A DNA stretch of 64,000 nucleotides from Marinobacter sediminum (GTDB taxonomy: Bacteria > Pseudomonadota > Gammaproteobacteria > Pseudomonadales > Oleiphilaceae): the NCBI RefSeq assembly GCF_016820575.1, contig NZ_JAEMQH010000002.1:989305-1053304 (forward strand). The letters run 5' to 3'. The notes under the pieces are model-generated. The model ran no database searches. It was not told where the DNA came from and was given only the letters and a program-made list of their open reading frames with translations. Shown here piece by piece: positions 56,419 through 63,355 of this stretch; positions within the stretch are counted from its first letter, which is position 1, and every line of letters begins with the position of its first letter. The translations under genes were made by a program, and so were the position numbers.

Positions 56419-56613
56419 AAACTTTATCCATCCGCCTGATTTTTTTAAGTTTGCTCCACGAAGGAGCCGTGCTAGAAAGTGCTAATACCCGAAGGTACCA
56501 TGCTTCGGCCATTCTCAGGGAACCTGATATGGCTGATACCTCGACAGCAACCAAACCACTTCGAGAACCGGGCGTAGAACTGTAGTGATCGAAGTGAGAA
56601 AAAATTGACCACC

Positions 56614-57522
56614 ATGACCATCCCTTTGGTGTACCACCCAGACTACAGTTTCCCGTTTCCGTCCCGCCATCGCTTCCCCATGGAGAAGTTTGCGCGATTG
56701 GCTGCCTACCTGCGTGGCCAGAATATCCTGACACCGGGCAATTGCTATCGCCCAGGCCCCTGCCGCCAGCAATGGCTGACACAAACCCACTGCTCCGAGT
56801 ACCTCCAGCGCTTTTATCGCAACACTCAGTCCGACAAAGAGCGTCGGCAAATGAACCTACCCTGGAGCGAGGGGCTGGTAAAGCGGACCTTTCTGGCACC
56901 CTCCGGTACCGTGCTCACCGCACAGCTTGCCCTGCAGCATGGCATTGCCTGCCATCTGGCCGGTGGTACCCACCACGCCCATCACGACTACGCCTCCGGC
57001 TTTTGCATTCTGAATGACCTGGCCATTGCCGCAAACGTGCTGGCACGCCAGAACGGAGGTCTGCAAGTTCTGGTGTTTGACTGCGACGTCCACCAGGGCG
57101 ATGGCACCGCCGCACTTTTGCGGAATGAACCCCGAGCCTTCACATGCTCGATTCACTGCAAACAGAATTTCCCATTCACCAAGCAACAGAGTGACTGGGA
57201 CGTAGAGCTGCCTGCAGGTACGCAAGATGAAGCCTATCTCGATACCGTTCGATCAACACTGCTGACGGCTATTGAACAAGTCCAACCCAACATCGTGCTC
57301 TATGACGCCGGTGTCGACGTGTTCGACGGTGATCCGCTCGGCCAGCTGCGCATCACCGAATCCGGCATACGGCGACGGGACAACCTGGTGCTGAGTGAGC
57401 TCAAAAAAGCACAAATTCCCGTCGCGACAGTGATTGGCGGTGGCTACGACGATGACCGGGACACCCTGGCCCGCCGCCATGCCATTGTAATTGAAGAAGC
57501 CCAACGAGTTTTCGGCCGCTAG
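56614..57522 (+). CDS. Histone-deacetylase-family hydrolase
   Basis: A 302-residue enzyme of the arginase/deacetylase fold. Zinc and catalytic residues are in GGTHHAHHDYASGFCILNDLA (His pair and tyrosine region), VLVFDCDVHQGDGTA (zinc Asp and His) and YDAGVDVFDGDPLG (zinc Asp). Bacterial members deacetylate small amines such as acetylpolyamines, or acetylated acyl groups. ATG at 56614 is taken as start because MTIPLVYHPDY is the family start; TTG at 56605 is an alternative. It precedes the branched-chain oxoacid dehydrogenase operon but is separated from it by a terminator-like hairpin. Confidence 0.9.
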   Translation: MTIPLVYHPDYSFPFPSRHRFPMEKFARLAAYLRGQNILTPGNCYRPGPCRQQWLTQTHCSEYLQRFYRNTQSDKERRQMNLPWSEGLVKRTFLAPSGTVLTAQLALQHGIACHLAGGTHHAHHDYASGFCILNDLAIAANVLARQNGGLQVLVFDCDVHQGDGTAALLRNEPRAFTCSIHCKQNFPFTKQQSDWDVELPAGTQDEAYLDTVRSTLLTAIEQVQPNIVLYDAGVDVFDGDPLGQLRITESGIRRRDNLVLSELKKAQIPVATVIGGGYDDDRDTLARRHAIVIEEAQRVFGR

Positions 57523-57697: not shown

Positions 57698-58882
57698 ATG
57701 ACAACAACAAAATCCAAAGTTGTATATTCCCCAGTATTTACCGATGGTGCGGAATTCCGGATTCCCACCTTCAAGCTTCTGAAACAGGACGGTTCACTCT
57801 ACAAGAGTGCCAAGGCTCCTGATCTAGATAAAGAGAAGGCCCTGCGTATCTACCGGGCCATGGTCACCACGCGGATTCTCGACGAGCGCATGCTTGCCGC
57901 TCAGCGCCAGGGGCGTTTGAGCTTTTACATGCAGTGCACCGGTGAAGAAGCCGCTGTTATCGGCAGCACCGCTGCGCTAGATGATGGTGACATGATCATG
58001 GCGCAATACCGGGAACAGGGCGCCCTCGCCTATCGCGGCTTCTCCATCGACGAGTTTATGAACCAGTTGTTCGGCAACGAGCTGGACTATGGCAAGGGCC
58101 GCCAGATGCCTGTCCATTACGGTTCCGAAAAACTCAACTACATGACTATTTCATCGCCCCTGGCCACTCAGATTCCTCAGGCCACAGGCTACGCGTACGG
58201 CCAGAAAATGGCGGGCGAAGGTCATTGCACCATCACCTACTTCGGCGAAGGCGCTGCCTCCGAAGGTGACTTTCACGCCGCCCTGAACATGGCCGCGGTT
58301 CACCGCGTGCCCGTGATCTTCCTGTGCCGCAACAACGGCTACGCCATTTCAACGCCCGCCGCTGAACAGTTCGCGGCCGATGGTGTTGCGCCCCGGGCCT
58401 ACGGCTACAAGATGGACGTGATCCGGGTGGACGGTAACGACATTCTGGCCATGTACCAGGCCACCCAGGAAGCACGAAAACTGGCGGTGGAGCACAATCG
58501 CCCCGTGCTGATCGAAGCCATGAGCTATCGCCTGGCGGCCCACTCCTCCTCCGACGATCCCTCGGGCTATCGCAGCAAAGACGAAGAAGCCGTCTGGCGC
58601 GAAAAAGATCCGATCCTGCGCATGCGTTTGTGGCTGGAAAGCCTCAAATGGTGGAGCGAAGACGACGAAAAGCAACTCCAGGAAAACATGCGCCGCGAAG
58701 TGCTTGAAACCATGAAGCGCGCCCAGAAGCGGCCACCTCCCGCACTCGATACGCTGGTTACCGATGTTTACGACGAAGTTCCGCCGCACCTGGCAGAACA
58801 GTTCGAAAAGGTAAAAGCGCACATCTGCAAGTATCCGGATGAGTATCCAAAGAGTGCTGAGCATGCGAAGGGAGGGGCCTGA
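57698..58882 (+). CDS. bkdA1: Branched-chain 2-oxoacid dehydrogenase E1 alpha subunit
   Basis: A 394-residue thiamine-diphosphate subunit. The TPP motif runs from [20 protein letters not shown] to [10 protein letters not shown] (G-D-G...N-N type). The segment [20 protein letters not shown] matches the phosphorylation-loop region of BCKDH/PDH E1 alpha (contains S-x-S-D-D-P). It decarboxylates 2-oxo acids from Val, Leu and Ile. The start at 57698 has AGGAAGAGG upstream. The E1 beta start follows one nt after the stop. Confidence 0.94.
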
Positions 58883-58883
58883 G

Positions 58884-59861
58884 ATGTCTAAGATGAATAT
58901 GCTCCAGGCCATTAACAGTGCCCTGGACACGGCCATGGCCGAAAACGAAAAGGTATTGTGCTTCGGTGAAGACGTCGGTGTTTTTGGTGGGGTATTCCGA
59001 GCCACCAGCAACCTGCAACAGAAATACGGCAAGGCACGGTGCTTCAACACCCCACTGGTGGAACAGGGGATCATCGGCTTTGCCAACGGCCTGGCCGCGC
59101 AAGGTTCGGTCCCGGTGGCGGAGATTCAGTTTGCGGACTACATCTTTCCGGCGTTCGACCAGATCGTTAACGAATCCGCCAAGTTTCGTTACCGCTCTGG
59201 CAACTTGTTTAATGTAGGTGGCCTGACCATTCGAGCACCCTATGGCGGCGGTATCGCCGGTGGCCTTTACCACTCGCAGTCACCGGAAGCCTATTTCGCT
59301 CACACACCCGGTCTGAAGATTGTGGTGCCGCGCAACCCTCATCAGGCCAAGGGCCTGTTGCTGGGCGCGATTCATGATCCTAACCCCACCCTATTCTTCG
59401 AGCCCAAGCGCCTCTATCGCGCGTCCGTTGGCGAAGTGCCCGACGAGGACTACCGGCTCCCACTGGGTGAAGCCGAAGTCATCAAGGAAGGCTCGGACAT
59501 TACCCTGCTGGGCTGGGGCGCCCAGATGGAAGTGATCGAAAAAGCCGTGGAAATGGCCGAGAAAGAAGGCATTTCCTGCGAGGTTATCGACCTGAGAACC
59601 ATCCTGCCCTGGGACGTGGAAACCGTTGCCAACTCGGTATTCAAAACCGGACGCCTGGTAGTTACTCACGAAGCTCCCCTGACCGGCGGTTTCGCCGGTG
59701 AAATCGCCGCCACCATTCAGGACCGTTGCTTCCTGTATCTGGAGTCTCCGATTGCACGGGTTACCGGGATCGACACACCGTTCCCGCTGGTGCTGGAAAA
59801 AGAGCACCTGCCCAATCACCTGAAGGTCTATGAGGCCATCAGGGCGAGCGTCGATTTCTAG
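58884..59861 (+). CDS. bkdA2: Branched-chain 2-oxoacid dehydrogenase E1 beta subunit
   Basis: A 325-residue transketolase-like subunit. [21 protein letters not shown] contains the conserved Glu that activates [23 protein letters not shown] and [18 protein letters not shown] are family blocks. The ATG at 58884 has GGGAGGGG upstream, within the end of the E1 alpha gene. It forms the alpha2beta2 E1 with the previous product. Confidence 0.95.
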
Positions 59862-59887
59862 GCTGATATCAGGACAGGAGAGTAACC

Positions 59888-61501
59888 ATGAGTGATTTTA
59901 TACTGCCCGATATCGGCGAAGGTATCGTGGAATGTGAACTGGTCAAATGGCTGGTCAGTGAAGGCGATCTGATCGAAGAAGATCAGCCGGTGGCCGAGGT
60001 CATGACCGACAAGGCCCTGGTGGAAATCCCCGCGCCCTATAAGGGCCGCGTAACTCGCCTCTATCATAGGGAAGGCGACATCGCGAAGGTTCATGCGCCG
60101 CTGTTCGAGCTGGTTGGCGAAGATGATTCCGGCGATAGCACCGCGCAGGCCACTTCGGACGCTAAAGAACCGCAACCGTCTGGCGAGCAGCCGCCTACGC
60201 CAGCCCCGAAAACCGTTTCAGCCCCCGATCAGGGCGACGATGCCACCGAAGACTTTATTCTACCGGATATTGGCGAAGGCATTGTTGAGTGTGAAGTGGT
60301 TGAATGGCGCGTTGCCGAGGGTGACGAAATCGAAGAAGACCAGCCCGTGGTCGACGTAATGACCGACAAGGCGATGGTTGAAATCACCGCACCCAAGGCC
60401 GGCCGGGTCACTAAGCTTTACCATCAGCAGCAGGAAATGGCGCAGGTGCACTCGCCTCTGTTCGCCTTTATCCCGCGCGAACGTGACGAGCCGGTCGAAT
60501 CGAAAGCCAAGCCCAGCCAGGCTCCTGCCCAGGATGCAGCGCCAGCCGCTGCGCAACCGGCGGCGGCAAAGAATCGACAACGAATTCCGGCCAGCCCGGC
60601 GGTTCGTCGACTGGTCCGGGAACACAGCCTGAATCTGGCCGACATCAATGGTTCCGGCAAAGACGGCCGCGTGCTGAAGGCCGATGTGCTGGCTCATCTT
60701 GAAAAACCGGCTGCGCAGCCTTCAAGCCAGGCAACCTCTGCTGAAGCCAAGCCGACGCAAGCCAGTGATGGACGCCGACGTGCGGCGGGCGAGCAGGAAG
60801 TCCGTGTTGAGCCGATCAAAGGCATGAAAGCGGCCATGGCTCGCAAGATGGTTACTTCGGCGAGCACGATCCCTCATTTCATCTACAGTGAGGACATCGA
60901 CGTCACCGACCTGCTGGCGCTGCGTGAGAAACTGAAAGTGGAGGCCGAAGCCAGGGGCTCTCGCCTGACCCTTATGCCATTTTTCATGAAGTCCATGGCT
61001 CTGGCGGTGCAGGACTTCCCGGTGCTCAATAGCCGAGTCAACGACGACTGTACCGAGATTCACTACCTGTCTCAGTGCAACATCGGCATGGCGGTAGACG
61101 GTAAGTCTGGACTGATAGTGCCCAACGTCAAAAGCGTTGAAAGCCTGACCCTGCTCGGCGTTGCTGACGAAGTGGCACGCCTGACCGAGGCCGCCCGCTC
61201 TGGCCGTGTCAGCCAGGAAGATCTCAAAGGAGGCACAATCAGCATTTCCAACATTGGCGCGCTGGGCGGCACCTATGCCTCGCCTATTATAAATGCGCCG
61301 GAAGTGGCCATCGTTGCCCTTGGCCGTACCCAGAAGCTGCCACGCTTCGACGCCAACGGCCAGGTCGTGGAACGGGCTATCTTGACGGTAAGCTGGGCAG
61401 GCGACCATCGCATTATTGATGGCGGCACCATTGCCCGCTTCTGCAATCGATGGAAAAGCTACCTGGAATCGCCGCAGTCGATGCTGCTGCATATGGGCTA
61501 A
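59888..61501 (+). CDS. bkdB: Branched-chain 2-oxoacid dehydrogenase E2 with two lipoyl domains
   Basis: A 537-residue dihydrolipoyl acyltransferase. Two lipoyl domains (1-78 and about 121-198) carry the lipoyl lysines Lys42 and Lys161 in VMTDKA. They are very similar, which indicates an internal duplication; Pseudomonas BkdB and most bacterial BCKDH E2 have one. Pro/Ala/Glu-rich linkers separate them. The E3/E1-binding domain is IPASPAVRRLVREHSLNLAD, and the catalytic core ends with GDHRIIDGGTIARF (active-site His and Asp). No E3 (lpd) gene follows, so the complex must use E3 from elsewhere. Confidence 0.95.
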   Translation: MSDFILPDIGEGIVECELVKWLVSEGDLIEEDQPVAEVMTDKALVEIPAPYKGRVTRLYHREGDIAKVHAPLFELVGEDDSGDSTAQATSDAKEPQPSGEQPPTPAPKTVSAPDQGDDATEDFILPDIGEGIVECEVVEWRVAEGDEIEEDQPVVDVMTDKAMVEITAPKAGRVTKLYHQQQEMAQVHSPLFAFIPRERDEPVESKAKPSQAPAQDAAPAAAQPAAAKNRQRIPASPAVRRLVREHSLNLADINGSGKDGRVLKADVLAHLEKPAAQPSSQATSAEAKPTQASDGRRRAAGEQEVRVEPIKGMKAAMARKMVTSASTIPHFIYSEDIDVTDLLALREKLKVEAEARGSRLTLMPFFMKSMALAVQDFPVLNSRVNDDCTEIHYLSQCNIGMAVDGKSGLIVPNVKSVESLTLLGVADEVARLTEAARSGRVSQEDLKGGTISISNIGALGGTYASPIINAPEVAIVALGRTQKLPRFDANGQVVERAILTVSWAGDHRIIDGGTIARFCNRWKSYLESPQSMLLHMG

Positions 61502-61510
61502 CGGGCAATC

Positions 61511-63355
61511 ATGACGCAGGCAAAACAGATCCAGCAGTTCTACATACCCGAAGAGCAATCTGTTTACCTGCTCAGTCATGACGACGCCAAAAAGCTCAAG
61601 GACTGGGTGGCGCTATGCGCCGCCCAGCTCCGCCAGCTTGGGTACCACGACATCGAGATGATCGGCAAAGGTGCCTATGGCTTCGTGTTCGCAGGCCGCC
61701 TGAGCCTGAAAGGCGCAAGCGACCTGGAGCACGTCTTCAAGTTCACCCGCATCAACCTGCCCCAGCACCTGCAGGATCGGCTGGAAGATGAAGCCTACAT
61801 CCTCGAGCAAGTTCGGCACCCGCGGGTGCCAAGGTTGATCTCCTTCCAACGCGCCCACAATCAGCCCATTCTGGTAATGGAACGGGCCGCCGGCCTCAAT
61901 CTTGAAGAAGTCTCCCTGCGTGAGGGCCGACTGAAACCTCGGCTCATTGTACGAATTGCCGACCAGCTTGCGGACATACTGCGCAACCTGCGGCGTGAGT
62001 CCGGCCCTGCCGGACGCCCCATCGTGCACGGTGACATTAAACCTTCGAACCTGGTCTTCGACGCCAGCACCGAGAACATTGCCCTGATCGACTGGGGGTC
62101 GTCGGTGTTCGCCCAACTGGATGCCAACCAGCAGTTCATCACCGCCAATGTAATGGAGCTGATGTCCGATAACCTTCAACAAACCAACGCCCGGCTGGGC
62201 GATGTCTATTTCATCGGTTCGGAACAATTGAGCGGAGGGCTCTCGTCACCGCGCTTTGATGAACAAGGCGCAGCCGGCACTCTGTACGCCCTGGCCTCGG
62301 GCCAGTCCTGCCGTTTCGGCCACCAGGCTATTCCGGCATCGTCGCTGGGGCTGCCGATGGAATTTGCCCGCATGTTGGACGGCATGCTGTCACCGGATCC
62401 GGAAACCCGCCGCAAGGCCGGTGATTACTACCTGAATGAAATGCCGAGAATGGCACGTACGGTAATGATCGACCTGCCAGCCAAGCCGGTCGCGCCGCTG
62501 GTTCCGGTGTGGGTACGAGCTTCTGAGCAGGAAATCGACACCGTTGTCTACAGCTCCCGGAAATCCTTCTTGCGTGAGGAAGGCGCGCCCGAAACTCTGA
62601 ACGACGTTAACGACGTGCAGCTGGATCGCTACTACAAGAACTTCATGCAGGGCATGGGCGAAACTGAAAAGGCCTTTCTCGCTTCAGTCAGCAGGTTGGG
62701 CCGATACCCGGTCGAAGGTGGCCTCGCGGTGCGCTGGGAAACTGATGGTGTATACATCGATACCTCGCTGAATCTGCACGATCCGAGCTTGAAGGCTGCC
62801 TTTGTCCGTGCGGTCAACAACATGGTCTATCTGGCCCAGGCGATCTATCGCAAAGGTATCTTCAAGAGTTGCCTGTTTAACGCCCGGAACACCCTCCACA
62901 TTGATCGCGCCGAACCGGACCAGCCGTTTCTGGTAACTCCCGGTATGAACCTGCATTACGAGGTCAGTGCGGCACCGGAGGTGGAAGACGAAACCCGCGT
63001 TCACTCCTACTTCGAGGACGGTCCCGATCCTGAAGAGTTTCTAGTGCTGCCAGAGACCATCATCCGGGCGTTGGAAGCGCTGAACAGAATTCACCACACC
63101 GGGATGATCATCTTTGAGGCTCTTCCCAAGCACCTGAAGATTCACAGCCATTACCGGCTGCTCGACCCAGAGCAGGAGCCGGAGTTCAGCCGGCTGCTGA
63201 ATGAGATCCTCTCAGCGGTGGAGGAGATTTCCGGGCTGGGCGTGTCTGGCTTCATGAAAATGCCCTACAAAGACACCCGGTTTTTCCCTCACATTGAGCG
63301 CTTACCGGAGAGTTATTACCCCCGGAATCCCAGATCCACCAGCGTTACTTCTTAA
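61511..63355 (+). CDS. Hanks-type protein kinase with unknown C-terminal domain
   Basis: A 614-residue soluble protein starting 9 nt after E2, so in the same operon. Residues about 45-320 are a eukaryotic-like kinase domain: glycine loop GKGAYGFVFAG (52-62), Lys77 in VFKF, catalytic loop IVHGDIKPSNLVF (Asp175, Asn180), metal Asp194 in DWG (DFG variant). All catalytic residues are intact; HGD replaces HRD. Residues about 330-614 form an alpha/beta region I cannot assign, including RYYKNFMQGMGETEKAF and MNRIHHTGMIIF-like stretches. No membrane span. Phosphorylation of the neighbouring oxoacid dehydrogenase is an inference from position. Confidence 0.85.
   Translation: MTQAKQIQQFYIPEEQSVYLLSHDDAKKLKDWVALCAAQLRQLGYHDIEMIGKGAYGFVFAGRLSLKGASDLEHVFKFTRINLPQHLQDRLEDEAYILEQVRHPRVPRLISFQRAHNQPILVMERAAGLNLEEVSLREGRLKPRLIVRIADQLADILRNLRRESGPAGRPIVHGDIKPSNLVFDASTENIALIDWGSSVFAQLDANQQFITANVMELMSDNLQQTNARLGDVYFIGSEQLSGGLSSPRFDEQGAAGTLYALASGQSCRFGHQAIPASSLGLPMEFARMLDGMLSPDPETRRKAGDYYLNEMPRMARTVMIDLPAKPVAPLVPVWVRASEQEIDTVVYSSRKSFLREEGAPETLNDVNDVQLDRYYKNFMQGMGETEKAFLASVSRLGRYPVEGGLAVRWETDGVYIDTSLNLHDPSLKAAFVRAVNNMVYLAQAIYRKGIFKSCLFNARNTLHIDRAEPDQPFLVTPGMNLHYEVSAAPEVEDETRVHSYFEDGPDPEEFLVLPETIIRALEALNRIHHTGMIIFEALPKHLKIHSHYRLLDPEQEPEFSRLLNEILSAVEEISGLGVSGFMKMPYKDTRFFPHIERLPESYYPRNPRSTSVTS

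Follow-up and report, generated by a model that had tools for sequence, protein, structure and literature searches.

A four-gene operon of Marinobacter sediminum (contig NZ_JAEMQH010000002.1, positions 989,305 to 1,053,304; this whole stretch of 64,000 nucleotides is hereafter the window) encodes the predicted E1α, E1β and E2 subunits of a branched-chain 2-oxoacid dehydrogenase (BCKDH) and, behind them, a Hanks-type kinase. In many marine and salt-loving bacteria this kinase comes and goes with BCKDH, and its gene usually lies directly behind the BCKDH (bkd) genes. It is probably a dedicated BCKDH regulator that would phosphorylate the complex, and its C-terminal half is conserved. An earlier reading made from the letters of the window (the sequence-only reading) had proposed that “this bacterium” may have evolved such control on its own; that scope was too narrow, since the kinase-BCKDH pairing spans several families of the window’s class.

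A scan with one genome per species found 250 relatives, and linkage of the kinase to bkd was counted in the best 80. The titles of these 80 name Marinobacter, Halomonas, Billgrantia, Litchfieldella and one Oleiphilaceae metagenome-assembled genome. Both E2 and the kinase were present in 79 of the 80 loci, and the kinase starts no more than about 120 nt from E2 in 76 of the 79 (tblastn ends extrapolated to gene ends); the distance is 121 to 400 nt in two others and 7.6 kb in one (L077). In the 80th locus, L041, the contig breaks off 71 nt ahead of the kinase. Because it recurs in 76 of 79 loci, the operon arrangement is not a product of chance. The sequence-only reading had named a predominance of homologues without bkd neighbors as the outcome that would count against it, and the same loci show the opposite. 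Another 27 loci with both genes, the window’s own included, have gaps of at most 120 nt in 14 cases, 121 to 400 nt in 4 and 401 to 3000 nt in 9. In seven further cases a full-length kinase stands in a fetched stretch without bkd genes, and one more kinase (L205) is only a fragment, lying at a contig end. Five of the seven unlinked kinases belong to family f234, and among the protein matches listed (120 of 1975) the f234 kinase of genome G692 is 99% identical to Shewanella proteins. No gene common to the surroundings of the unlinked kinases was recognized in the loci inspected.

The kinase stays beside bkd while the surrounding genes turn over. Over 79 loci the gene preceding E1α sorts into 42 clusters, and over 80 loci the one following the kinase sorts into 41, counts that derive from greedy open reading frame (ORF) calls with 80 of 121 loci kept (antisense ORFs) and that may include some spurious flanking ORFs. 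The gap counts are unaffected by this clustering because they were taken from tblastn ends. The window’s own neighbors are rarely kept: of 121 loci, the window’s genome among them, 12 have Mqo and 8 have the downstream gene, and some loci are too short to reach farther neighbors.

Presence and absence were tabulated in overlapping samples of 145 genomes from the order, 369 from the class and 398 from the phylum. In the phylum sample the kinase (E 1e-30) occurs in 29 genomes, and an E1α of at least 60% identity occurs in exactly the same 29, all of which belong to the window’s class; 59 other genomes have an E1α of at most 43% identity (E 1e-60), none with such a kinase. Fifteen genomes of the order carry the kinase (E 2.1e-158 or better), no genome has the kinase only, and an E1α of at least 61% identity is found in the same 15 and in G141, the sole genome with this E1α type but no kinase. 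Five further genomes of the order have an E1α of at most 42% identity and no such kinase. Five genomes of the class sample have both genes. In families f6, f36, f37 and f40 presence varies, and each tabulated genome has both genes or neither. The two genes also co-occur where they are separated: in seven of the 29 genomes the kinase does not adjoin bkd, the kinase and E1α share a contig at a large distance from each other in G692, G716, G835 and G793, and they are on separate contigs in G765, G803 and G815.

Within the window, the four genes form a row on one strand with intergenic gaps of 1, 26 and 9 nt, and coordinates and Pfam domains bear out the order and spacing given in the sequence-only reading. 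E1α has an E1_dh domain, E1β has Transket_pyr and Transketolase_C, and E2 has two lipoyl stretches, E3_binding and 2-oxoacid_dh. The nearest solved relatives of E1α are named BCKDH: 1dtw (presumably human) and 2bff score highest, at 400 bits, against 245 bits for 1um9 (2-oxo acid dehydrogenase), 236 for 1w85 (pyruvate dehydrogenase [PDH] E1α), 220 for 1qs0 (2-oxoisovalerate dehydrogenase, presumably bacterial) and 144 for mitochondrial PDH E1α. None of the four proteins, kinase included, scores above the cut-off of an NCBIfam model. Because the best such model for E1α is of the PDH type (374.6 bits, under the cut-off of 411.35), the substrate is read from sequence comparison, from which we infer that the operon encodes BCKDH.

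The kinase is Hanks-type, with a fold taken from a structural model and intact catalytic residues, and is predicted to phosphorylate protein. Its Pfam matches are Pkinase (PF00069, 64.6 bits against a cut-off of 31.7, E 1.2e-17), PK_Tyr_Ser-Thr and APH (31.4 bits, above the cut-off of 23.2 and lower than Pkinase). In an alignment of 38 family members, Gly52, Gly54, Lys77 of the VAIK motif, Glu94 of helix αC, Asp175, Asn180 and Asp194 are identical in all and Gly57 in 37, which confirms the glycine loop, Lys77, Asp175, Asn180 and Asp194 picked out in the sequence-only reading. Its motifs are HGD and DWG instead of HRD and DFG, with Trp replacing the Phe of DFG. Gly174, present in 38/38 members, stands in place of the HRD arginine, and the kinase is therefore non-RD, a subclass trait that does not exclude membership in the Hanks-type family. 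The full-length model (mean pLDDT 76.5) adopts a PknB-like protein kinase fold, and on structural realignment the 50 matches listed are almost all protein kinases, covering mainly residues 36 to 320. The Pfam matches and the fold of the model thus uphold the assignment to Hanks rather than GHKL kinases. The BCDHK_Adom3 and GHKL ATPase domains that together mark the mitochondrial type are not matched by the window kinase in Pfam; a PF10436 profile search of the whole genome returned no match, but its controls matched nowhere either, so this result does not establish absence elsewhere in the genome.

In the family alignment, residues 321 to 614 are conserved to much the same degree as the kinase domain. 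This C-terminal region has no Pfam match up to E 10 and no PDB sequence match. Modelled alone it is poorly predicted (pLDDT 51.7), with Foldseek matches of E 0.2 or worse, so that a check for an ACT- or ferredoxin-like sensor yielded neither a Pfam domain nor a better structural match. Its two halves align at P 0.0013 with a probability of 18, which is no more than suggestive of an internal duplication. The weaker kinase matches of the order sample (about 22 to 38% identity) are confined to parts of residues 17 to 337, and the C-terminal region is therefore not seen outside the kinase family in that sample.

Upstream of the operon lies a palindrome, TTTACGTTAAGGTAAA, that we take to resemble a site of the MerR-family regulator LiuR. 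The pattern was picked by eye from the window. Of 139 regions upstream of the kinase-linked E1α type, 101 match it at no fewer than 12 of its 14 scored positions, and none of 139 single-base shuffles does; the other 38 regions score under 12/14, and the 139 count some genomes repeatedly and include many close relatives. In Shewanella, bkd is a predicted target of both LiuR and TyrR (PMC3223726).

Features of the predicted BCKDH operon and related matches in the genome
Feature	Coordinates	Strand	Basis or remarks
Palindromic operator-like site TTTACGTTAAGGTAAA	57565..57580	.	117 nt before E1α start
Predicted BCKDH E1α (2-oxoisovalerate dehydrogenase alpha), 394 aa	57698..58882	+	Pfam, PDB sequence comparison
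E1α loop, residues 282-293	58541..58576	+	Alignment with 1dtw loop HSTSDDSSAYRS
Predicted BCKDH E1β, 325 aa	58884..59861	+	Pfam
Predicted BCKDH E2 acyltransferase, two lipoyl domains, 537 aa	59888..61501	+	Pfam
Hanks-type kinase of the BCKDH operon, 614 aa	61511..63355	+	Pfam, relatives
Kinase domain, about residues 45-320	61643..62470	+	K77, E94, HGD175, N180, DWG194; non-RD
C-terminal region, residues 321-614	62471..63352	+	Two α-β-β-α-β units in full-length model
PP2C_2 match	C6:301264		Beside kinase match C6:300416
PP2C_2 match	G000:C1:418609-419826		661-aa frame, also a weak match to the kinase query

We propose that the kinase phosphorylates the BCKDH complex, most likely on E1α. Action on BCKDH appears quite probable, and E1α is a somewhat favored choice of subunit. 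Residues 282 to 293 of E1α align with the loop HSTSDDSSAYRS of the mitochondrial E1α 1dtw, and we take Ser283 to correspond to mitochondrial site 1 and Ser293 to site 2. In mitochondria, phosphorylation of the site-1 serine disorders the loop near the cofactor and halts decarboxylation. Ser283, in a loop that would lie beside the thiamine diphosphate site, is a possible, if rather doubtful, target. An inhibitory effect, by which phosphorylation would reduce the flux from Leu, Ile and Val into acyl-CoA, is put forward tentatively. The C-terminal half would probably sense a metabolic signal or dock on the complex. A broader version, in which a family of Hanks-type BCKDH kinases senses a branched-chain metabolite through two α-β-β-α-β units and governs the breakdown of branched-chain amino acids throughout Gammaproteobacteria, as a functional counterpart of the mitochondrial BCKDH kinase (BCKDK) that has an unrelated fold and works on a closely related E1α, is plausible and falls a little short of being probable.

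Several observations weigh against such regulation, beginning with the loop itself. It was surveyed in 169 distinct E1α rows spanning at least query residues 60 to 325, of which 108 are of the kinase-linked type (one from the kinase-less G141) and 61 others come from kinase-less genomes. The site-1 serine is found in 108/108 rows of the first group and equally in 61/61 of the second, and the serine loop therefore gives no support to kinase control and was rejected as proof of it. Judged from this alignment, Ser283 is common to these E1 proteins in general and uninformative about the window kinase. Site 2 is Ser or Thr in 105 of the 108 kinase-linked-type rows; in the kinase-less rows it is Ser in 17 and Pro in 41 of 61. 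It is Gly in G141 and has also been lost in two kinase-bearing rows, L126 (Asn) and L184 (Ala). The site-2 serine is thus only suggestive as a mark of the kinase and is confounded by phylogeny, which could be the source of the difference. The sequence-only reading had placed a serine-rich loop where mitochondrial BCKDH is phosphorylated; the alignment with 1dtw supports that position, and its value as support is gone. What stands of that interpretation is the Hanks-type rather than GHKL character of the kinase and its coupling to bkd, in 76 of 79 loci and in the same 29 of 398 genomes even where the genes lie apart.

The genome counts also include exceptions: in the class sample G503, which lacks an E1α at E 1e-100, has a kinase fragment that lies at the end of a contig, and G141 retains the kinase-linked E1α type with no kinase match at E 0.001 in its genome. 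Related genomes, moreover, are not independent samples. The operator-like site is absent at the unlinked kinases, where the best scores in seven loci (8 to 10 of 14) are like those of shuffles, and co-regulation of these kinases through the site was rejected on that ground. The operon contains no phosphatase gene, and both PP2C_2 matches in the genome (the search covered PP2C_2 in the window’s own genome) accompany other kinases; with each paired in this way, PP2C_2 was rejected as the source of a cognate phosphatase. The 661-aa frame on C1 is likely, from its sequence matches, a phosphatase-kinase fusion.

The kinase may serve BCKDH in another way, by phosphorylating E2 or E1β or by activating or assembling the complex, with no off-switch in the E1α loop. 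We regard this as unlikely, though it accommodates the loop serine that is not specific to kinase-bearing genomes, the loss of site 2 in two kinase-bearing rows and the position of the kinase gene directly behind E2 in most loci. It has to be set against the mitochondrial analogy, where the E1α loop is the target that controls BCKDH activity, and against the enrichment of Ser/Thr at site 2 in the kinase-linked E1α type, which may reflect phylogeny. An improbable alternative is that the kinase targets some other protein (a small inhibitor, for instance, or a regulator or a further enzyme of the pathway) and that linkage to bkd only reflects shared conditions. PknG of Corynebacterium glutamicum provides the precedent, as it controls 2-oxoglutarate dehydrogenase through OdhI (PMC9769921), and the lack of a common operator-like site at the unlinked kinases fits as well. 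Nevertheless, no third gene travels with the pair among the inspected neighbors (distant partners lay outside the search), these neighbors vary (RlmJ-like, TesB-like, VOC-like and transporter-like, names by reading), and the genes on either flank sort into about 40 clusters.

Co-inheritance in one old lineage, with the genes neighbors by chance and the kinase doing an unrelated job, would explain why every kinase genome of the phylum sample belongs to the window’s class, and the relatedness of the genomes favors it. It is very improbable, because linkage lasts while other neighbors change, presence matches inside mixed families and co-occurrence outlives gene separation in seven genomes. More improbable still is a pseudokinase or a small-molecule kinase; the non-canonical HGD and DWG motifs and the APH match above its cut-off point that way, but the catalytic residues checked are invariant, Pkinase outscores APH and the structural matches listed are almost all protein kinases.

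Individual loci showed further particulars. In G141 a gene reading as leucine dehydrogenase (L175:9614-10690) stands behind E2, at the usual place of the kinase. The L077 locus, from Halomonas ramblicola, has several large opposite-strand ORFs in the ~7.6 kb between E2 and the kinase (L077:2360-10000). Two f185 genomes have an RlmJ-like methyltransferase gene between E2 and the kinase (L185:6896-7738 and L187:7185-8099) and a TesB-like thioesterase gene behind the kinase, both named by reading of the sequence. The E1α of G229 (L261) is only about 40% identical and yet agrees with the kinase-linked type at 11 of 12 checked residues that are otherwise peculiar to that type; G229 is not among the kinase carriers of the phylum sample. 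Among the matches listed for the window kinase (120 of 1967), one labelled Streptosporangium jomthongense (P0099) is a kinase 82% identical to the window’s and probably comes from a mislabelled Marinobacter-like genome. In the window, a histone-deacetylase-family gene (56605-57522, same strand) lies directly upstream of bkd and is kept in 2 of 121 loci, counting the window’s genome.

Most bacterial Hanks-type kinases have substrates that are broad or unknown. Here the genome evidence names one likely target complex, and substrate discovery is therefore directly testable. Should the proposal hold, kinases of unrelated folds came to control BCKDH by phosphorylation on at least two separate occasions, and bacteria that break down branched-chain amino acids would have a post-translational switch beside transcriptional control. 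The conserved C-terminal region, in addition, matched no family in the libraries searched (Pfam and PDB sequences). Targeted literature searches returned no bacterial BCKDH kinase among titles and abstract openings, which does not prove that none has been published. That a kinase can control a 2-oxoacid dehydrogenase is already known; new is the kinase family proposed as the agent.

Among known systems, the bkd operons of the other E1α type, for example those of G094 and G122 (probably Pseudomonas), have the same E1α-E1β-E2 order (L176 and L178), whereas their E1α is 41 to 42% identical and their genomes have no kinase of the window family. The model of the window kinase folds like PknB-type bacterial Ser/Thr kinases, but the protein has no PASTA match in Pfam, a C-terminal region of its own and the HGD and DWG motifs. 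PknG has other domains besides the kinase, and the inhibitor that it phosphorylates, OdhI, is an FHA-type protein. As in that system, a bacterial Ser/Thr kinase is proposed to govern a 2-oxoacid dehydrogenase; unlike PknG, the window kinase has kinase-type Pfam matches only and is encoded with the complex, and no inhibitor partner was recognized among the inspected neighbors (no FHA search was made). The closest parallel in function would be BCKDK. The proposed substrate complex is shared, the window E1α is nearest to mitochondrial BCKDH E1α among solved structures, and the loop is conserved. BCKDK, however, has the GHKL fold, whereas the window kinase is Hanks-type and encoded together with the complex that it would control.

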